NCBI GenBank assembly: GCA_903835685.1
Contig: CAILNX010000056.1
Span: 1-64,000 of the forward strand
DNA length: 64,000 nt
From: an uncultured delta proteobacterium
Lineage (GTDB): Bacteria > Desulfobacterota > Desulfovibrionia > Desulfovibrionales > Desulfovibrionaceae
Direction of reading: 5' to 3'
In this document: positions 16,621-31,517 of the stretch, piece by piece
Position numbering within the stretch: position 1 is the stretch's first letter
Layout of the letters: each line of letters starts with the position of its first letter
Notes under the pieces: generated by a model
What the model saw: only the letters and a program-made list of their open reading frames with translations
Database searches by the model: none
What the model was told of the DNA's origin: nothing
Program-made: the position numbers and the translations under genes

Positions 16621-18354
16621 CTAGGCCTTGATCCGCAGCACGCGGACCAGGTCGGCCAGGAGGTCGGGCTTGTCGTGCAGGTCCGAGCCCTGAAGGAAGA
16701 TGCGGCGCTGGTCGAAGCGGTCTTTCAGCACGGCCTTGTACTCCTCCAGGTTCTCGACCTTGTCCGGGTCGTAGGCCAGGGTGTAGCCGGGCAGGACCTT
16801 CTCCACGCTCTTGCGCGCGGGCAGTTGGGCCCCGGGCAGAAGGGACCAGTCCTCCCACTCCAGCTTGTCCAGGACGATGGAGGATTGCAGGGTGAGCGAG
16901 GTCTGGAGCGGGATCTTGTGCAGATCGTCGTCGGCCGAGCGCCAGAAGCCCACGGAATTGAAAGAATAACCCATGGCCCCGTGCTCGAAGACGTTCAAGA
17001 ACGCCTCCACGTCCTTCCACAGCTCGTAGACCCGGAAGGGGTTGGCAAAGGGGATGAACACCAGCTTTTTCAACTCTTCCTCGGACACGTTCTCAGCCTG
17101 GTTGCGCCGGGTCATGAGCGAGGCCCCCATGGCCACGGCCAGGATGGGGTCCTTGAAACGGATGACCGGGGGCAGGGCCGTGTCCTTCATGAGCCAGCAG
17201 ATGAGATTGGGGAAGGAGCAGCGGTTCACCCACTCGCCCAGGAGGTCGCGGTCGATGAGCGCCCGGCCGTTGGGATTGCGCAGGTCCTGGCCCAGGGGCA
17301 GGTTCTTGCCGTCCACGCTGATGACCCCGTGGTTCTGCACCGCGATCATGTACTTCCAGTCCGGATGCCCCAGGGGCCGGGAGTCGGTCTTGTCGAAGAG
17401 CGTGGGCTCCCAGACCCGGCAGACCTTTTTGGCCACGTCGATCTGAAAGGCGTCGTCGTGCAGGACCACCTTCTTGAACCCGGCGGGCAGGGTCCCGCCG
17501 TTATCGTGGGAATTGGTGTGCGAGGACTTGCCCGTGCCGGACAGGCCAAAAAAGGCCACGGAGCGCTTGCCCACGGCCTTGGCCGCCTGGTCCGCGCAGC
17601 CCGAAAAATCCAGCTCCTTGACCCCGCCGTGGCAGGCGGCCATGCCCACCCGGATGCCCGAGGTCCAGGCCAGGGTCAGGGTGCCCTTCTTGCGCTCGCC
17701 GAAATAGCGCATGCCGAAATTGTAGATGACGTTGGCGTCCTCATCCACCAGGGCCAACTGGGGGAAGCCCTGGTTGTGGTAGTAGGGGTCCTCGTTGCGC
17801 CAGAGGTTGTCGCCGATGACGATGATGTCCTGGATGGGCAGCTTGGGGCTTTTCTCGTAGACCTTGCGCAGCTCGGCGTAGGGGGTGAAATTGGCCAGCC
17901 AGTTGAAGATGTTGACCGCGTCGTCCGTCCCGCCAATGATGGTCGCTTTTATCATCAGCTCGGGGTCCAGGCCCACGATGGCCTGGGCTTTTATCAAGGG
18001 GCGGCGCTGGAGGTCGGACACGGCCTCGCGCAAATCGGCCAGGACCTTGCGTTTTTCCGGATCGGGCAGGCGGGTGTAGAAACGCCGGGCCATGGCCGTG
18101 CGGCCCACGATCTTGCCCTGGCAGTTGTTGATGACCTTGGCCCCCTTGGGCAGGCCCAGGCGCTTGGCCGCCTTGGGATAGATGGGCAGGTCCGTGACCT
18201 GGACGTCCCACTGGGCCAGGGCCAGTTCGTAAGCCTCGGCCGCCGTGACCTCGCGGATGCGCGGATCGCAGAGCAGGGTTTCAGCCACGGCCCGCAAAGG
18301 GGGCAGCTTGGTCAGGTCGGCGCGGTAGTACTCGTAGGTGCTTTGGCTGGCCAT
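16621..18354 (-). CDS. pckA: ATP-dependent phosphoenolpyruvate carboxykinase
   Basis: The 577-residue enzyme carries the PEPCK kinase-1a P-loop [10 protein letters not shown] (about residue 265-275), the metal-binding [14 protein letters not shown] region and [12 protein letters not shown]. It interconverts oxaloacetate and PEP with ATP, giving gluconeogenesis or anaplerosis. It is somewhat longer than the usual ~530 residues, mainly at the N-terminus. The start at 18354 has AAGGAG upstream. It stands alone between a convergent-spaced macro gene and the EamA transporter gene. Confidence 0.9.
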
Positions 18355-18473
18355 GCGGGAAACTCCTTGTAAGCCGGACAGGATTGCGTATCCGGCCAAA
18401 ACCGCCCCCCTGTAACCTGAAATTCACATGACGCAAAGTACTTTTTTGGGAGGTCCGGCGGGGGGAACCGGCG

Positions 18474-23327: not shown

Positions 23328-25325
23328 ATGGCTCTGATTCTGGCGGCCCTGGCCGTATACCTATCAGGCGCTGGCCTGGCCTGGGTGCTGGGCCGGGGGC
23401 GGGCCGCGAGCATCGCGGGCTCGGCCTCGGCCGTGGTCGGGGGCATTCTCGGGGTCATCGGCCTGGGCTTGGCCCTGTCCAGGCTCATGGACGGCCACCC
23501 CATCCCGGACCTGGCCCTGGCCTGGTCCCTGCCGGGCCTGCATGTGGTCCTGGGCCTGGACGGGCTCTCGGCCGTGTTCCTCCTGCCGGTCTTCGTCCTG
23601 GGCGGGCTCTGCGCCCTGTCCGGCCACGCGGCCCTGGCCCATGACCCGGATAAGCCCCATCTGGGCGCGCACTGGTCCTTCTACAATCTGACCCTGGCCG
23701 GTCTGACCCTGACCCTCATGGCCCGGGACGGCCTGCTTTTTCTCATCGCCTGGGAAATCATGTCGCTGGCCCCCTTCTTCCTCATCGTCACCCATGACAA
23801 GGAAGAACGGGTCCGCACGGCCGGTTGGGCCTATCTGATCGCCTCCCACCTGGGCGCGGTGATCCTGGCCCTGGTCTTCATCCTCCTGGGCCGGGAGGCC
23901 GGGAGCCTGTCCTTCGCGGCCTTCGCCAGCCTGCACGGCCTGTCCCCGGTCCTGGCCGGGACCATCTTCCTGCTCGGGCTTACCGGATTCGGGGCCAAGG
24001 CCGGGTTCGCGCCCCTGCACGTCTGGCTGCCCGAGGCCCATCCGGCCGCGCCCAGCCACGTCTCGGCCTTCATGTCCGGGGTGCTCATAAAAATCGGGGT
24101 CTACGGGGTCATGCGCCTGTTGACCTTCCTGGGCCAGCCCCCGGAATGGTGGAGCCTGGCCTGCATCGGCCTGGGCCTGTTCACCGGGGTGTGGGGCATC
24201 CTGGCCGCCCTGGGCCAGCGGGATATAAAACGCCTGCTGGCCTATTCCAGCGTGGAGAACGTGGGCCTCATCCTCCTGGGCCTGGGCCTGGGGCTCATGG
24301 GCACGGCCCAGCGCCTGCCGGGCCTGGCCCTGCTCGGCTACGGCGGGGCGCTCCTGCACATGCTCAACCACGGGCTGATCAAGAGCCTGCTCTTCCTCTC
24401 GGCCGGGGCCGTGCTGCACTCCACCGGCACCCTGGACCAGAGCCGCCTGGGCGGCCTGGCCGGGCGCATGCCCTTGACCGGCGCGGCCTTTTTCCTGGGC
24501 GCCCTGGCCATCTGCGGCCTGCCCCCGCTCAACGGGTTCTGCGGGGAACTGCTCATGTACATGGCTGCGGCGGCCAACACCGCTGGCGACGGGTTCTCCC
24601 ACGACGTGTCCGTGCTCTGCTCCGTGGCCGGGCTGGCCTTTATCGGGGCCTTGTGCCTGGCCGCCTTCGGCCGGGGACTGGGCGCGGCCTTTCTGGGCGA
24701 GCCCCGCTCGGAGGCCGCCCTGAAAGCCCATGACCCCGGGCACCTGGAATGTTTCGTGCTGCTGGTCCTCCTGGGCCTGTGCCTGACCGCCTCCCTGGCC
24801 GCGCCGAGCCTCTTCTCCATCCTGCTCCCGGCCGTGACCCTGCTCATGGGCAAGGGCGGAGCGGCGGCCGAGCGTCTGGCCCCCACGGCCACCATGCCCC
24901 TGGCCTACACGGCCCTGGCCGCCTGCCTGGTCTTTCTGGCCGCCGTGGTGCTCTTCAAGCTCCGGGAACGCCTGCTCTTCAACCGCCCCATCCGGGGCTC
25001 GCGCACCTGGGGCTGCGGGTACACTGGGCCCACGGCCCGCATGCAGTACTCGGGCGGGTCCTTTGTGCAGCCCCTGGCCGACCAGACCCGGACGGTCACC
25101 GGGCACAGGACCGTCATCCACGCCCCCCTGGGCCTGTTCCCCCTCTCGGCCCGGGTGGAGGAACGCTCGCCCGAGCGGGGGGTGGTCTGGCTGTTCCGGC
25201 CCCTGTTCCAGGGTCTGGAAACCCTGTGCAACGGCCTCAAATTTCTCCAGCACGGCAAGGCCCACCTGTACATCCTCTATATTTTGGTGGCCCTGGTCCT
25301 GGCCCTGGCCTGGAAGGGGCAATAG
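23328..25325 (+). CDS. HyfB-like proton-pumping membrane subunit of an Ehr-type complex
   Basis: The 665-residue protein is an antiporter-like subunit (NuoL/M/N, MrpA/D family) with roughly 15 transmembrane helices. The conserved proton-channel region HVWLPEAHPAAPSHVSAFMSG and the KRLLAYSSVENVG helix are present. The cytoplasmic tail (residues about 560-620, RGSRTWGCGYTGPTARMQYS) matches the HyfB/HycC type. It should move protons or sodium ions, coupled to redox chemistry of the soluble arm. It is the first gene of the six-gene cluster; the start at 23328 has TGGAGGG just upstream. Confidence 0.93.
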   Translation: MALILAALAVYLSGAGLAWVLGRGRAASIAGSASAVVGGILGVIGLGLALSRLMDGHPIPDLALAWSLPGLHVVLGLDGLSAVFLLPVFVLGGLCALSGHAALAHDPDKPHLGAHWSFYNLTLAGLTLTLMARDGLLFLIAWEIMSLAPFFLIVTHDKEERVRTAGWAYLIASHLGAVILALVFILLGREAGSLSFAAFASLHGLSPVLAGTIFLLGLTGFGAKAGFAPLHVWLPEAHPAAPSHVSAFMSGVLIKIGVYGVMRLLTFLGQPPEWWSLACIGLGLFTGVWGILAALGQRDIKRLLAYSSVENVGLILLGLGLGLMGTAQRLPGLALLGYGGALLHMLNHGLIKSLLFLSAGAVLHSTGTLDQSRLGGLAGRMPLTGAAFFLGALAICGLPPLNGFCGELLMYMAAAANTAGDGFSHDVSVLCSVAGLAFIGALCLAAFGRGLGAAFLGEPRSEAALKAHDPGHLECFVLLVLLGLCLTASLAAPSLFSILLPAVTLLMGKGGAAAERLAPTATMPLAYTALAACLVFLAAVVLFKLRERLLFNRPIRGSRTWGCGYTGPTARMQYSGGSFVQPLADQTRTVTGHRTVIHAPLGLFPLSARVEERSPERGVVWLFRPLFQGLETLCNGLKFLQHGKAHLYILYILVALVLALAWKGQ

Positions 25326-25327
25326 TC

Positions 25328-26266
25328 ATGGCCGTCATGCTGCACATCCTCCTGGCCCTGGTCCTCTCCCCCCTGCTCCTGGGGATCATCGCCCGGGTCA
25401 AGGCCCTTATGGCCGGGCGCAACGGGCCGCCGCTCATCCAGCCCTACCTGGACCTGGTCAAGCTCCTGGGCAAGAGTTCGGTGTACAGCAACACCACGAC
25501 CTGGGTGTTCAAGGCCGGCCCCCTGGGCGTGCTGGCCGGGCTGGTGGTGGCCCTGTTCCTGCTTCCGGCCGGACGCGTGCCCGCCCTGGTGTCCTTTCCC
25601 GGGGACCTCTTCCTTTTCGCCTATCTCCTGGGCCTGTCCCGGTTCTGCATGGTCATGGCCGCCCTGGACACGGGCTCGGCCTTCGAGGGCATGGGGGCCT
25701 CCCGGGAGGCGGCCCTGGCCGCCCTGGCCGAACCGGCCCTCATGGTCGGGCTCCTGGTCTTTGTGCAGCGCTCGGGGAGCCTCTCCCTGACCTCCATGTT
25801 CGGGGTGGCCGCCTCGGCCCCGGCCGGGCAGTCCACACCCATGATCGTGCTGGTGGCCGCAGCCCTGTTCATCCTGCTCCTGGTGGAGAACGCCCGCATT
25901 CCGGTGGACGACCCGAACACCCACCTGGAGCTGACCATGATCCACGAGGTCATGATCCTGGACCACAGCGGGCCGGATCTGGGCTTTCTGCTCTACGCCC
26001 AGGCCTTAAAGCTCTGGGTGACCGCTGGCCTGTTCGCCAATGTCCTGTGCCTGGGCGACCTGGCCGGGACCCATGGCTCGGCCGCGGGCTCCGATCTCGC
26101 GGGACTGACTGGTTTGGGCCTGCATGTGGCCGGAATCCTGATCGTGGCCCTGGCCGTGGGCCTGGTGGAGTCCTGCATGGCCCGCCTGCGCTTAAACCGT
26201 CTGCCCCAAATCCTGGCCTCTGCCGGGGCCTTGTCCACCCTGGCCCTGCTGCTGCTCTGGAGGTAG
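25328..26266 (+). CDS. HyfC-like (NuoH-type) membrane anchor subunit
   Basis: The 312-residue protein has about eight transmembrane helices. The NuoH/HycD signature ENARIPVDDPNTHLELTMIHE is intact, with the charged residues that link the peripheral arm to the membrane arm, and RNGPPLIQPYLDLVKLLGK is near the N-terminus. It should connect the Fe-S small subunit to the proton-pumping part. The ATG lies 2 bases after the previous stop. Confidence 0.95.
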   Translation: MAVMLHILLALVLSPLLLGIIARVKALMAGRNGPPLIQPYLDLVKLLGKSSVYSNTTTWVFKAGPLGVLAGLVVALFLLPAGRVPALVSFPGDLFLFAYLLGLSRFCMVMAALDTGSAFEGMGASREAALAALAEPALMVGLLVFVQRSGSLSLTSMFGVAASAPAGQSTPMIVLVAAALFILLLVENARIPVDDPNTHLELTMIHEVMILDHSGPDLGFLLYAQALKLWVTAGLFANVLCLGDLAGTHGSAAGSDLAGLTGLGLHVAGILIVALAVGLVESCMARLRLNRLPQILASAGALSTLALLLLWR

Positions 26267-26273
26267 CCCTCAA

Positions 26274-26915
26274 GTGACCGGCCTGCTCGATTTCATCACC
26301 ATCCTGGCCGTGCTGGCCAACCTGACCATGCTCTCGGTCTCGGGCATGCGCGCCCTGATCCGGAGCGCCGGGGTCCAGGGCCTGGTCCTGGGTCTGGTCC
26401 CCATGGTGGCCCACGGCTCGCCGACCCTGCACATCCTGATCTTCTCCCTGATCGTGGCCGGGCTCAAAGGCCTGCTCCTGCCGCGCATGCTCCTGCGCAC
26501 CTTGAAGGACCTGGACGTCCAGCGCGAGGTGAAGCCCTATGTGGGCTTCGGGCTCACGGCCTTTTTCGGGGTGGCCGGGTTGGCCGCCTCGGTCTGGTTC
26601 TGCGCCAGCCTGCCCACCCCGGGAGGGGAGCCGGTGCGTTTCGCCCTGTCCGCGGCCTTCATGACCATCCTGACCGGTTTTCTGCTCATCATCACCCGCA
26701 AAAAGGCCCTGACCCAGGCCGTGGGCTATCTGATCATCGAGAACGGGGTCTTTCTCATCAGCGCGGTCCTGGCCCCGGCCGGTCCCATGCTGGTGGAGAT
26801 GTGCATCCTTCTGGACCTGTTCGTGGCCGTGTTCGTCATGGGCATCGCCCTGCACCACATCAACCAGGCCTTTGACTCCATCGACACGGAGCTGATTTCG
26901 ACCTTGAAGGACTAG
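26274..26915 (+). CDS. HyfE-like (NuoK-type) membrane subunit
   Basis: The 213-residue protein is a small membrane subunit with about six helices. The NuoK-like stretch KKALTQAVGYLIIENGVFLI with the buried glutamate and the DLFVAVFVMGIALHHIN segment are diagnostic of HyfE. It starts with GTG at 26274, 7 bases past the hyfC-like stop. An unusual 161-base AT-rich gap follows before the next gene of the cluster. Confidence 0.93.
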   Translation: MTGLLDFITILAVLANLTMLSVSGMRALIRSAGVQGLVLGLVPMVAHGSPTLHILIFSLIVAGLKGLLLPRMLLRTLKDLDVQREVKPYVGFGLTAFFGVAGLAASVWFCASLPTPGGEPVRFALSAAFMTILTGFLLIITRKKALTQAVGYLIIENGVFLISAVLAPAGPMLVEMCILLDLFVAVFVMGIALHHINQAFDSIDTELISTLKD

Positions 26916-27076
26916 GATGAAGAACGGAAACTGGCTTTGGCGCACGCAAGACGCGCGAAGATGAAAACAGCGCAAGAATTTAAATTTTTTGAAATATTTT
27001 TTCTTTTTTCTTTCTTGATCTTGTTTCCGGAACTGAACACGAGAAAACACGCACCCATGAACGCAAAGAGCACTGC
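26916..27076. other. AT-rich gap inside the Ehr-type cluster
   Basis: All other junctions in this cluster are 10 bases or less, or overlapping, but here 161 bases separate the hyfE-like and hyfF-like genes. The centre is almost pure A/T and contains a CAAGAA...TTCTTG palindrome. No open frame of note is present. It could hold a processing site, an internal promoter or an inserted repeat. Confidence 0.6.
26973..27017. repeat. CAAGAA...TTCTTG palindrome in the cluster gap
   Basis: A CAAGAA arm and a TTCTTG arm enclose a run of A/T. Ends and composition resemble the palindromes at 49430-49455 and 58334-58368. Confidence 0.35.
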
Positions 27077-28561
27077 ATGAGAGCCGCCATCCTGGTGGGC
27101 ATGCCCCTGGCCGCAGGCCTTTCGGCCTTTGTCACCCGGTCCAACACGGCCCGGCGCACCCTGCTGGTGGGCCAGGCCCTGGCCCATTTCCTCCTGGTCC
27201 TGTCCCTGTGGGTCCAGGACCCAGGCCCGACCCTGTTCGGGCTCTTCCAGGTGGACGCCCCGGGCCTTTTGTTCATCACCCTGGGCAGCCTCCTGTTCCT
27301 GGCCGTGTCCATCTATTCCCTGGGCTACCTGGGCGCGGAAAAGCAGGGCAAGCGCGAGGACTTCCAGGGCCAGGGGGCCTTCATCAACGCGCCCGAGACC
27401 CGGTTCACGGCCTGCCTCCTGCTCTTCGAGTCGGCCATGAGCCTGGTCTGCCTGGCCGGGCATTTCGGGCTCATGTGGGCGGGCGTGGAGGCCACCACCC
27501 TGGCCAGCGCCCCGCTCATCTTCTTCCACCGCCACCACCGCAGCCTGGAGGCGGCCTGGAAATACCTGCTCATCTGCTCCGTGGGCATCGCCCTGGCCTT
27601 ACTCGGCACCGTGCTCCTGGCCATGTCCGCGGGCGGGGGCGAGAGCGAGGCCTCCCTGCGCCTGGACGTGCTCGTGAGCCGGGCCGCCAGCCTGGACCCG
27701 GCCTGGTTCAAGGCCGCCTTCGTCTTTCTCCTGGTGGGCTACGGGACCAAGATGGGGCTCGCGCCCATGCATTCCTGGAAGCCCGACGCCTACAGCGAGG
27801 CCCCCTCCCTGGTCTCGGCCCTGTTGGCCGGGGCCCTGTGCAACTGCGCCTTCCTGGGCATCCTGCGCATCTTCCAGGTGGCCTGCGCCACCGGGGACCC
27901 GGGTTTCGCCCAGGACCTGCTCCTGGCCTTCGGGCTGTGCTCCCTGGCCTTTGCGGCCGTGTTCATCATGGACCAGGGCGACTACAAGCGCATGCTGGCC
28001 TATTCCAGCGTGGAGCACATGGGCCTTCTGGCCTTTTCGCTGGGCATCGGGGGCACGGCCGTGTTCGGGGGCATGCTCCACGCCGTGAACCACTCCCTGA
28101 CCAAGGGCCTGCTCTTTCTGCTGGCGGGCAACATCCTGGCCGCCTACCACACCAAGTCCTGCCACGACATCACCGGCGCGGTCCACGCCCTGCCCCGCAC
28201 CGGGCCCTTGTGGATGGCCGGGTTCCTGGCCATTGCGGGCCTGCCGCCGTTCGGGCTGTTCGTGAGCGAATTCACCATACTGCGGGCGGCCTTTGAGGCT
28301 GGCCGAGTCATCCCGGCCGTGGCCTGCCTGGCCCTTTTGGCCGTGATCTTCATCGGCATGGCCCAGGCCGTGCTGCGCATGAGCCTGGGGCCGGTCCCGG
28401 CCGGAATGGAAGGCGGAGTACGGGAAGCCGGGCCGCTCATGTGGGGGCCGCCCCTGGCCCTCATGGTCCCCTGCCTGATGCTCGGCCTGTATTTGCCCGG
28501 CCCCCTGGTGGAGGTCCTGGCCCGGGCCGCCCGGCTTTTCGTCACCGGAGTCCGGCCATGA
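27077..28561 (+). CDS. HyfF-like second antiporter-like membrane subunit
   Basis: The 494-residue protein is another NuoN/MrpD-type proton-translocating subunit with about 13-14 helices. It keeps GTKMGLAPMHSWKPDAYSEA and the YKRMLAYSSVEHMG helix, and its position after hyfE matches HyfF. Two antiporter-like subunits in one complex imply pumping at more than one site. Its stop overlaps the start of the large-subunit gene (ATGA). The ribosome site is weak (AAGAGCACTGC). Confidence 0.93.
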   Translation: MRAAILVGMPLAAGLSAFVTRSNTARRTLLVGQALAHFLLVLSLWVQDPGPTLFGLFQVDAPGLLFITLGSLLFLAVSIYSLGYLGAEKQGKREDFQGQGAFINAPETRFTACLLLFESAMSLVCLAGHFGLMWAGVEATTLASAPLIFFHRHHRSLEAAWKYLLICSVGIALALLGTVLLAMSAGGGESEASLRLDVLVSRAASLDPAWFKAAFVFLLVGYGTKMGLAPMHSWKPDAYSEAPSLVSALLAGALCNCAFLGILRIFQVACATGDPGFAQDLLLAFGLCSLAFAAVFIMDQGDYKRMLAYSSVEHMGLLAFSLGIGGTAVFGGMLHAVNHSLTKGLLFLLAGNILAAYHTKSCHDITGAVHALPRTGPLWMAGFLAIAGLPPFGLFVSEFTILRAAFEAGRVIPAVACLALLAVIFIGMAQAVLRMSLGPVPAGMEGGVREAGPLMWGPPLALMVPCLMLGLYLPGPLVEVLARAARLFVTGVRP

Positions 28562-30111
28562 TCCGCGCCCTGGAAATGAAACCGGGCACGCCCGTGCCCC
28601 AGGCCGAGATCCCGGCCCTGGACCAGGAGGAATTCGGCGAGGCCATGCTGGCCCTGGCCGCCCAGGACTGCCGGATCGCCGCCCTGTTCGCCGCCCCTCA
28701 CCCCCTGGCCGATCCGGCCGGACGCCTGCGGATCTGGGCGGTCATGGCCGACGACGCGGCCGGGACCGTGTGGGTCCTGCGCTCCCGGGCGATCAAGGGC
28801 CAGTTCCATTCCCTGACTTCGCTTCTGCCCCAGCTCCATCTGTTCGAGCGGGAGATCGCCGAGGAATGGGGGGTCCTGCCCGAGGGCCATCCCTGGCTCA
28901 AGCCCGTGCGCTTTCCCCCGCCGGTTCCGGGCCGGGCCTCGGTCTTTGGCCCGAAAAACGAGGCCGTGGGCCACATGGACTTCTTCCGGGCCACCGGCTC
29001 CCAGGCCCACGAGGTGGCCGTGGGTCCGGTGCACGCCGGGGTCATCGAGCCCGGGCACTTCCGTTTCCAGTGCCACGGCGAGGACGTCCTGCACCTGGAG
29101 ATTTCCCTGGGCTACCAGCACCGGGGCGTGGAGCGCGCCCTGCCCGGATTCCCCGGGCCGCGCACCCTGGCCCTCATGGAGACCCTGGCCGGGGACACCA
29201 CCATGGGCCACGGCCTGGCCTATTGCCGGGCCATGGAGTCCCTGTCCGGGACCACGCCCTGCCCCGAGGCCGAGATCCTGCGCCTGGTCATGCTCGAACT
29301 GGAGCGTCTGGCCAACCACACCGGGGACCTGGGCGCGCTGGCCGGGGACGTGGGCTTTCTGCCCACCCTGTCCTTTTGCGGACGCCTGCGCGGGGATTTC
29401 CTGAACCTTTCGGCCCTGGTCTGCGGCAGCCGCTTCGGCCGGGGCATGGTCAGGCCCGGCGGGGTGGGCTTCGGCCTGGACCGGGAGCGCACGGCCCTGT
29501 TGCGCGAGCGGCTTCAGGCCACCCTGGCCGACGTGGAAGGGGCCATCCAGGTCCTCTGGGATTCAGGCACGTCCATGCGCCGCTTCCACGACACCGGGGT
29601 CCTGTCCCGGGAGGACGCCACGGCCCTGGGACTGGTTGGCCCGGCCGCCCGGGCCAGCGGCCTGGAGCGCGACGTGCGCCATGACTTTCCCCGGGGCTGG
29701 TACGAGCACCTGCGCTTCCCCATCCCCACCCGGGACGAGGGCGACGTGTTCGCCCGGGCCACGGTACGGCACCTGGAAATACGGCAGTCCGTGAACCTCA
29801 TATTAAACGCCTTGAGCGCCCTGGACCCGGACCTGGCCTCGGACCCGGCCCGCCTGGCCCCGCGCACGGCCGCGAGTCCCCCGCTCCTGGCCCGGGATGC
29901 CCTGACCGTGTCCCTGGAGGAGGGCTGGCGGGGAGAAATCTGCCACGTCTGCCTCACCGGGCCGGACGGGTCCATCGGCCGCTACAAGGTGGTGGACCCC
30001 TCGTTCCACAACTGGTTCGGCCTGGCCCTGGCCCTGCGCAAGGGGCAGATTTCCGACTTCCCCCTGTGCAACAAAAGCTTCAATCTGTCCTACTGCGGGC
30101 ACGATCTCTAG
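28558..30111 (+). CDS. HyfG-like catalytic-subunit homologue lacking NiFe ligands (Ehr type)
   Basis: The 517-residue protein fuses a NuoC-like 30-kDa domain (residues about 70-125, SLTSLLPQLHLFEREIAEEW) to a NuoD/HyfG-like large-subunit domain. In true hydrogenases two CxxC pairs bind nickel and iron. Here the first becomes A211-G-D-T214 (LAGDTTMGH, H218 kept) and the second becomes S482-F-H-N485 in VDPSFHNW. The protein therefore cannot hold a NiFe centre. The C-terminus DFPLCNKSFNLSYCGHDL is typical of the energy-converting hydrogenase-related family. The reaction is unknown. Confidence 0.93.
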   Translation: MIRALEMKPGTPVPQAEIPALDQEEFGEAMLALAAQDCRIAALFAAPHPLADPAGRLRIWAVMADDAAGTVWVLRSRAIKGQFHSLTSLLPQLHLFEREIAEEWGVLPEGHPWLKPVRFPPPVPGRASVFGPKNEAVGHMDFFRATGSQAHEVAVGPVHAGVIEPGHFRFQCHGEDVLHLEISLGYQHRGVERALPGFPGPRTLALMETLAGDTTMGHGLAYCRAMESLSGTTPCPEAEILRLVMLELERLANHTGDLGALAGDVGFLPTLSFCGRLRGDFLNLSALVCGSRFGRGMVRPGGVGFGLDRERTALLRERLQATLADVEGAIQVLWDSGTSMRRFHDTGVLSREDATALGLVGPAARASGLERDVRHDFPRGWYEHLRFPIPTRDEGDVFARATVRHLEIRQSVNLILNALSALDPDLASDPARLAPRTAASPPLLARDALTVSLEEGWRGEICHVCLTGPDGSIGRYKVVDPSFHNWFGLALALRKGQISDFPLCNKSFNLSYCGHDL

Positions 30112-30120
30112 GGAGGGGCC

Positions 30121-30888
30121 ATGTTCTCCATCATCGCCCAGCGCCTGCGCCAGAAGAAGCGCACCATCAGCTTTCCGGCGGCCGCGCCCACCCTGCCCGA
30201 CCGCTTCCGGGGCCTGCCCGAACTGGACCCGGGCATATGCGCCACCTGCGCCGTGTCCTGCCCGCCGCCCTGCATCCTGGCCTGCCCGGCCAAGGCCATG
30301 TTCGAGGAGAACGGGGCCATGCGCCTGGATATGGGCCGCTGCACCTTCTGCGGGTCCTGCGAGAACGCCTGCCCCCACGGGGCCGTGCGTTTCACTCAAG
30401 GGTATTCCTTGTCCGCCCGCCATCGCGACGACCTGATCCTGGGGCCGGGCCTTTTGCCCCGCATGGAGGCCCTGGATACGCGCATGCGCAAGCTCTTCGG
30501 CCGGTCCTTGAAGCTCCGGCAGGTGAGCGCGGGCGGGTGCAACGCCTGCGAGGCCGACGCCAACGTGCTGACCACCGTGGTCTTCGACCTGTCCCGCTTC
30601 GGCATCGATTTCGTGGCCTCGCCCCGGCACGCCGACGGCCTGTATATCACCGGCCCGGTGCCCGAGAACATGCGCGAGGGGCTCATGCTCACCCTGGAGG
30701 CCCTGCCCCTGCCCCGAATCATCATCGCGGTCGGGGCCTGCGCCATTTCCGGCGGCCTGTTCGCCGACCTGGACACCAGCGCCAAGGGTGCGCTGCCCCA
30801 CCTGGAGCCGGACCTGTTCATCCCCGGCTGCCCGCCCCACCCCGTCACGGCCCTGGACGGCATGCTGCGCCTTTTGGGGCGCATCTAG
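30121..30888 (+). CDS. HyfH/HyfI-like fusion: ferredoxin domain plus NuoB-type small subunit
   Basis: The 255-residue protein joins two modules that are usually separate genes. Residues 40-84 carry two cysteine groups: Cys40, 43, 47, 51 and 55 (CATCAVSCPPPCILACP, an unusual spacing) and Cys74, 77, 80 and 84 (CTFCGSCENACP, a standard 4Fe-4S site). Residues about 135-255 are NuoB-like with Cys140, Cys143, Cys207 and Cys237 (GGCNACEAD, GACAISGG, PGCPPHP) for the proximal cluster. It should carry electrons to the altered large subunit. It is the last gene of the cluster; the next gene converges on it. Confidence 0.93.
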   Translation: MFSIIAQRLRQKKRTISFPAAAPTLPDRFRGLPELDPGICATCAVSCPPPCILACPAKAMFEENGAMRLDMGRCTFCGSCENACPHGAVRFTQGYSLSARHRDDLILGPGLLPRMEALDTRMRKLFGRSLKLRQVSAGGCNACEADANVLTTVVFDLSRFGIDFVASPRHADGLYITGPVPENMREGLMLTLEALPLPRIIIAVGACAISGGLFADLDTSAKGALPHLEPDLFIPGCPPHPVTALDGMLRLLGRI

Positions 30889-30891
30889 CAC

Positions 30892-31362
30892 TCAGATAAA
30901 GACTTCGCCTTTCCCCTTGGCCAAAACCACCACCCCCTGGGACTCCAGGCGGTGGGCCAGGTCGGTCAGGCGCTTCTGGGCCTCCTCGGCCTCGGTCAGG
31001 CGCACGGGGCCGTGGGCTTCCAGGTCCTCGCGCAGGGTGTCGGCCGCGCGTTTGGCCAGGGTGGAGAAGATTTTCTCGCGCAGCTCGGTCGAGGCCGCGC
31101 GCAGGGCCGGGAGCAGGTCCGTGGACGGGGCCTGGCGCAGGATTTCGCGCAGGGAACGCAGGTCCAGGCTCAGGAAATCCTCGAAGGTGAAGATCAGGCC
31201 GCGCACCTGGGCGGCCAGGTCCGGGTCCTGGGCCTCCATGGAGGCCAGGGCCTCGGCGGCCTGGCCCGGGGGCAGGGAATTCAGGATGGCGGCCACGGAA
31301 CGGGCTCCGTTGGGCGTCTCGACTTTGAGGCGCGGGGCATGGGCTGGAAGGCGCGGGGGCAT
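30892..31362 (-). CDS. Short FliG-like protein (middle/C-terminal region only)
   Basis: The 156-residue protein matches the end of the flagellar switch protein FliG: AAILNSLPPGQAAEAL, DPDLAAQVRGLIFTFEDFL, then ASTELREKIFSTLAKRAADTL and DLEAHGPVRLTEAEEAQKRL. It lacks the FliG N-terminal domain that binds FliF, so it is about half of normal length. There is no other flagellar gene nearby. It may interact with MotA or FliM-like partners or have a non-flagellar role. The start at 31362 is backed by AGGAGGA. Confidence 0.82.
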   Translation of the reverse strand: MPPRLPAHAPRLKVETPNGARSVAAILNSLPPGQAAEALASMEAQDPDLAAQVRGLIFTFEDFLSLDLRSLREILRQAPSTDLLPALRAASTELREKIFSTLAKRAADTLREDLEAHGPVRLTEAEEAQKRLTDLAHRLESQGVVVLAKGKGEVFI

Positions 31363-31517
31363 GGGTCCTCCTGTCCGGCGAGCCGGGACCCGGTACATAG
31401 CCCCTTGGGCCGGGCCTGCCAAGGGCTTAAGGCCAGGGATTCAAGACCCAGGGCTCTTGACGAAAAGGTGACGGGGCCATAGTTTTGGCTTGAACCGCAA
31501 CAGCAGCCGGAGGGCCG

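Follow-up and report, generated by a model that had tools for sequence, protein, structure and literature searches.

The 64,000-nucleotide stretch of DNA analysed here (the window) is part of contig C56, one of the 65 contigs of a 3.9 Mb genome from an uncultured member of the Desulfovibrionaceae. Kinship structure and gene content likewise suggest a probable Desulfovibrionales host. Six complete genes on its + strand, spanning positions 23328-30888, encode a membrane-bound complex of the Ehr kind (energy-converting, or Ech, hydrogenase-related), in which antiporter-like, NuoH-like and Fe-S small subunits share one operon with a large subunit homologous to that of group 4 hydrogenases (Table 1). 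All open reading frames (ORFs) are full length and free of frameshifts, and Pfam and NCBIfam matches of the complete genes bear out the six-gene, Hyf-type layout proposed for this region in a first-pass annotation of the DNA. The HyfE-like gene is conserved across Ehr operons. In the window it is separated from the HyfF-like gene by 161 bp (26916-27076) that include an AT-rich T-tract in a GC-rich genome, where the same genes nearly abut in related operons. A further HyfB-type antiporter gene is present in some Ehr operons (xBBCEFGI; L012, L015, L016, L041, L073 and others). Scans of the operon region for Rfam families, tRNAs and promoters yielded nothing useful.

Table 1. Genes of the operon, motifs of the large subunit and the regulator gene of the second Ehr operon of the genome
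Feature	Position	Strand	Evidence
HyfB-like antiporter subunit (EhrA type), 665 aa	23328..25325	+	Pfam PF00361 3.5e-54; best NCBIfam match, hydrogenase 4 subunit B
HyfC/NuoH-like membrane anchor subunit, ATG at 25328	25328..26266	+	PF00146 2.3e-33; carboxylates conserved
HyfE-like membrane subunit, GTG start, 213 aa	26274..26915	+	NCBIfam hydrogenase 4 membrane subunit 2.1e-23
HyfF-like second antiporter subunit	27077..28561	+	PF00361 3e-47; best NCBIfam match, hydrogenase 4 subunit F
Large subunit, 517 aa, NuoC-like N-terminal part fused to NuoD/HycE-like part, nickel-iron (NiFe) ligands replaced	28558..30111	+	PF00346, trace of PF00329
I163-E164: I163 in place of the complex I quinone ligand His38, E164 equivalent to MbhL E21	29044..29049	+	Alignment; residue roles from PMC7684303
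Former CxxC motif 1: A211-G-D213-T214...H218	29188..29211	+	Aligned to HycE C241/C244 and EchE CGIC
Former CxxC motif 2: S511-Y-C513-G514-H515-D516-L517, C-terminus	30088..30108	+	Aligned to HycE DPCYSCTDR and EchE DPCISCTER
Small subunit, 255 aa, HyfH-like domain fused to HyfI-like domain	30121..30888	+	PF01058 with Fer4
HTH-EIIA gene of the second Ehr operon	L092:16128-16877	-	Helix-turn-helix and PTS EIIA-2

Relatives of the complex

Ehr complexes have been described, among others, in Geobacter sulfurreducens (GSU0739-45) and comammox Nitrospira (PMC7894505, PMC6349859, PMC10284858), and the window complex is a new example of this already known kind. It shares with them a large subunit devoid of CxxC motifs, a Hyf-type membrane arm and a small Fe-S subunit. 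It differs in having six genes without the leader gene that is common upstream of Ehr operons (see below), the Geobacter system being compared by description only. In a large-subunit tree built without the named published Ehr sequences, 96 Ehr rows form one clade (SH-aLRT 99) that includes the window protein. The nearest sampled NiFe group is E. coli HycE/HyfG, with long branches in between. The tree, the motifs and the operon agree with the assignment to the Ehr group made from the DNA alone, and the protein does not fall inside the true group 4 hydrogenases.

The genome has four PF00346 loci, and intact NiFe motifs are found only in that of an ordinary Ech hydrogenase (CGIC, DPCISCTER), which is encoded on contig C17 together with a complex I operon. 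No large subunit with intact CxxC motifs is thus encoded near the window operon. The Ech protein, of the same superfamily and with a ferredoxin-type architecture, is ~26-27% identical to the window protein, in which both of its motifs are replaced. A second Ehr complex (L092, G000:C26:68500-88000) belongs to another lineage and has an EIIA regulator; its large subunit is 53-55% identical to that of the window. The window copy groups with that of genome G031 (support 98), both being part of a clade from the same order, and the second copy groups with those of G028 and a Myxococcota-labelled metagenome-assembled genome (MAG; support 99). The two complexes are distantly related and do not stem from a recent duplication. 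Of the window's own genome and its relatives, 59 in all, 16 encode an Ehr large subunit, which is fragmentary in one. An organism with two Ehr lineages beside a true Ech and complex I offers a good setting in which to ask for an Ehr-specific role.

The former NiFe site and the electron path

Group 4 NiFe hydrogenases hold four Cys ligands in two CxxC motifs. Both motifs are gone from the window protein, with A211/T214 and S511/G514 in their places. The first-pass annotation had rightly noted that all four ligands are lost, and had correctly placed the first pair at A211/T214, with H218 kept, but it took S482/N485 for the second pair, which in fact lies 29 residues further on. In phmmer, MAFFT and hhalign alignments, the hydrogenase DPCxxC corresponds to the terminal NLSYCGHDL, in which S511 and G514 occupy the cysteine positions and C513 is shifted between them. 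DPSFHN, which contains S482 and N485, aligns instead to ATYANW of HycE/HyfG, PTFANI of Ech and PGFSNL of NuoD, and its status as the second CxxC motif is ruled out by all three methods. It is an invariant Ehr signature, with S482 and N485 each found in 82/82 sequences.

That count, like those that follow, refers to 82 Ehr large subunits: the window protein, its paralogue and the products of 80 loci (L012-L091) spread over many phyla. In motif 1, position 211 is Ala in 74, Ser in seven and Cys in one; Asp is invariant at 213; position 214 is Thr in 76, Ser in five and Ala in one; and His218 is present in 81. In motif 2, S511 is conserved in 81, C513 in 78, G514 in 81 and D516 in 80. I163, E164 and G212 are each present in 82/82. 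In related enzymes, MbhL E21 is key to proton reduction, and H38 and Y87 of Nqo4 are quinone ligands (PMC7684303). Ehr proteins thus keep the equivalent of the former, E164, and have I163 and G212 at the positions of the two quinone ligands. The newly conserved residues may bind a metal or a substrate. Taken together, the signatures describe a site that differs in type from those of NiFe hydrogenases, complex I and MBS (MBS being the sulfane sulfur reductase of Pyrococcus), with a hydrogenase-like proton input.

Modelled with AlphaFold2 (AF2; mean pLDDT 79.8, pTM 0.85), the large subunit is structurally closest to HycE (7z0s_E; Z 34.7, root-mean-square deviation 3.2 over 460 residues), and NuoD, HycE and MbhL are among its closest solved proteins. 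The complex has the same subunit types as E. coli Hyc/Hyf and shares with it the equivalents of E164 and H218. It differs from them by the absence of NiFe ligands, of HyfA, HyfD, HyfJ and HyfR and of a C-terminal tail past the motif, and by the fusion of HyfH to HyfI. Another large subunit (L111, G041:C127:914-2458) also lacks both CxxC motifs (ERISGKSAFSH, FGLSVAENDR) and sits on a very long branch; by its signature it is not Ehr but belongs to a different NiFe-less lineage.

As the earlier annotation had noted, the small subunit retains every one of its Fe-S cysteines. MbhJ and HycG are among the closest solved proteins to this subunit. Its HyfH-like ferredoxin domain has eight Cys for two [4Fe-4S] clusters, each conserved in at least 74/76 small subunits. 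The proximal-cluster cysteines of its HyfI-like domain (C140, C143, C207 and C237) follow the CxxC spacing of hydrogenases in 75 of the 76. The pump glutamates and lysines are likewise conserved in HyfB and HyfF of Ehr complexes, and in the window they are E143, K224, K255, K352 and E407 of HyfB and E138, K225 and K343 of HyfF. The electron wire and the pump are therefore intact in Ehr; for the putative redox-driven ion pumping of the complex, the observation is the conservation of the pump residues.

Ehr of Geobacter has been described as non-functional and drifting (PMC13194489, 2026). A hydrogenase relic would be in line with the loss of all Ni ligands, and an evolved strain has missense changes in ehr genes (PMC13194489). 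We nevertheless consider a relic extremely improbable. The ratio of non-synonymous to synonymous substitution rates (dN/dS; Nei-Gojobori) is about 0.1, with a range of 0.04-0.21 in 13 pairs of closer large subunits, which marks strong purifying selection. A 37-row alignment has >100 invariant columns, and both results contradict the description of Ehr as non-functional and drifting. Cluster and pump residues are kept, and Geobacter makes Ehr proteins whose abundance shifts with the electron donor (PMC7894505). As the ligand loss is also common to all 82 proteins, it reflects neither decay nor sequencing error; the full-length ORFs and the family-wide nature of the substitutions rule out a sequencing error or frameshift in the window as well. 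The loss is ancient and fixed, and the strict conservation of Ehr speaks for a working machine.

Candidate donors and acceptors

The reading that we favour, with modest confidence, is that Ehr is an ion-pumping, membrane-bound oxidoreductase of the complex I/group 4 hydrogenase superfamily, fed by ferredoxin, which reduces an acceptor together with protons in the former NiFe cavity. Such a complex would be unable to make or use H2. A soluble low-potential carrier would probably deliver electrons to the eight-cysteine domain of the small subunit, with ferredoxin fitting the Fe-S chain. From there the proximal cluster with its four cysteines would relay them to an acceptor in the cavity that holds NiFe in hydrogenases, here built anew from its own set of near-invariant residues (D213, H218, S511, C513, G514 and D516). 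Since the proton-delivery glutamate of hydrogenases is kept as E164, reduction of the acceptor is probably coupled to protons. The HyfC/HyfE/HyfF/HyfB arm would use the reaction to transport H+ or Na+, and running in reverse the reaction might yield reduced ferredoxin. The sequences themselves show the gene content, the missing Ni ligands and complex I quinone ligands, the retained Fe-S cysteines, pump residues and E164, and the strong purifying selection. Ferredoxin as the donor, a protonated non-quinone acceptor and the direction of flow are the parts of this scheme that we infer.

Several points weigh against this proposal. We found no Ehr biochemistry. The active-site loops of the AF2 model (residues 148-185 and 502-517) have pLDDT < 50, so that the cavity itself is not seen. 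The loss of the H38 and Y87 equivalents leaves room for a quinone bound in another way, and the host has menaquinone genes of the futalosine pathway. MqnA/MqnD-type genes of that pathway are found on the contig of the operon (G000:C56:105217-109241).

Menaquinone would be the acceptor if Ehr were a ferredoxin:menaquinone oxidoreductase, like complex I without its NADH module. The fold shared with NuoD and the large chamber expected from homology would suit such a function, as would the menaquinone genes of the host. Ehr has NuoB/C/D/H/I/L/M-type modules in common with complex I, from which it differs by the absence of the NADH module, of tandem Cys at the proximal cluster and of the quinone His and Tyr. 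Neither the operon nor the adjacent genes that were scanned encode a NuoE/F/G module. The replacement of both quinone headgroup ligands by invariant residues, H38 by I163 and Y87 by G212, does not support a complex I-like quinone reductase. Furthermore, among 53 Ehr genomes, 29 encode MqnA/D-type proteins and four more have MenD over the cut-off, but 20 have neither, although gaps in MAGs might account for some absences. Two of these 20, Atribacterota and Bipolaricaulota MAGs, also lack a UbiA-family protein; G071 and G090, the genomes of L025 and L062, have no matches to MqnA/D, MenD over the cut-off or UbiA and are candidate quinone-free Ehr carriers. This co-occurrence is no more than suggestive, since the completeness of the MAGs is not given and the UbiA family is promiscuous (14/14 controls positive). 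The quinone-like acceptor envisaged in the first-pass annotation has thus lost ground, and we hold a menaquinone reductase to be unlikely.

A role linked to formate dehydrogenase (FDH) has been put forward for Margulisbacteria (PMC6349859), and Ehr subunits of Geobacter are more abundant on formate (PMC7894505). Nevertheless, the operon has no HyfA homologue, and no FDH or HycB/HyfA-type gene recurs within 10 kb of the 80 Ehr loci or of those of order-level relatives. The HycB/HyfA-type subunit and FDH partner of a formate hydrogenlyase are therefore absent from the operon and do not recur beside it, although a partner gene could lie at a distance. We regard this role as distinctly unlikely. 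In the same survey, no other gene, redox or otherwise, recurred beyond the operon and the leader gene described below. The complex is therefore probably self-contained, and its neighbourhood names neither a donor nor an acceptor.

Sulfur reduction is the function of MBS, a characterized relative that has also lost the Ni ligands and has no equivalents of H38/Y87 (PMC7684303), and a host akin to the Desulfovibrionales could plausibly live where sulfur is abundant. However, MBS catalysis rests on a shortened proximal-cluster motif with three Cys (PMC7684303), where Ehr has four Cys in CxxC spacing, and the E21 glutamate lost in MBS is kept in Ehr. Neither hallmark of MBS is thus found, and an MBS-like sulfane sulfur reductase acting at the proximal cluster seems highly unlikely. 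Ehr complexes occur in many phyla without an established substrate. These analyses make complex I-like quinone reduction and MBS-like sulfur reduction less likely, and they name exact residues for mutation.

The HTH/PTS-EIIA leader gene and neighbouring genes

In 51 of the 53 loci with at least 1.5 kb of upstream sequence, the HyfB gene is directly preceded, usually at -3 to 50 bp, by a gene for a protein of ~230 aa that combines an excisionase-type helix-turn-helix (HTH; PF12728) with a phosphotransferase system (PTS) EIIA-2 domain (PF00359). Neither of the two EIIA histidines varies among 22 aligned members, and no NCBIfam model naming such a protein scored over the cut-off. Two Ehr operons carry two EIIA genes. 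Full-length copies are present in 6/59 related genomes, all of which have Ehr. They do not represent six independent events, as four of these genomes share a genus. The gene accompanies the second Ehr copy of the host and those of G028 and the G046/G054/G058 group. It is absent from the window operon and, within its Desulfovibrionales-like clade, from the eight relatives at order level for which upstream sequence was read.

This regulator may tie the pump to phosphotransferase signalling. A fuller proposal, which we advance tentatively and hold to be rather doubtful, is that Ehr is a distinct redox pump whose non-nickel site, made from the old NiFe loops and the proton glutamate, reduces a protonatable acceptor, possibly with a different metal, and whose expression or activity is set in most phyla by phosphorylation via the co-transcribed HTH/PTS-EIIA protein. 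The literature search returned no report linking an EIIA/HTH gene to Ehr; as it did not extend to subscription journals, the link may already be known. With this proviso, the presence of the leader in most phyla, its absence from the window clade, and the occurrence of two Ehr complexes, Ech and complex I in one genome appear to be new.

Just 3' of the operon, a convergent gene (30892-31422, - strand) codes for a stand-alone FliG C-terminal domain protein of 176 aa (PF01706). Elsewhere in the window, the sole match of a 592 aa protein (16621-18399, - strand) is a weak one to PEP carboxykinase (26.2 bits, E 4e-6), and it might be a divergent kinase of that type.

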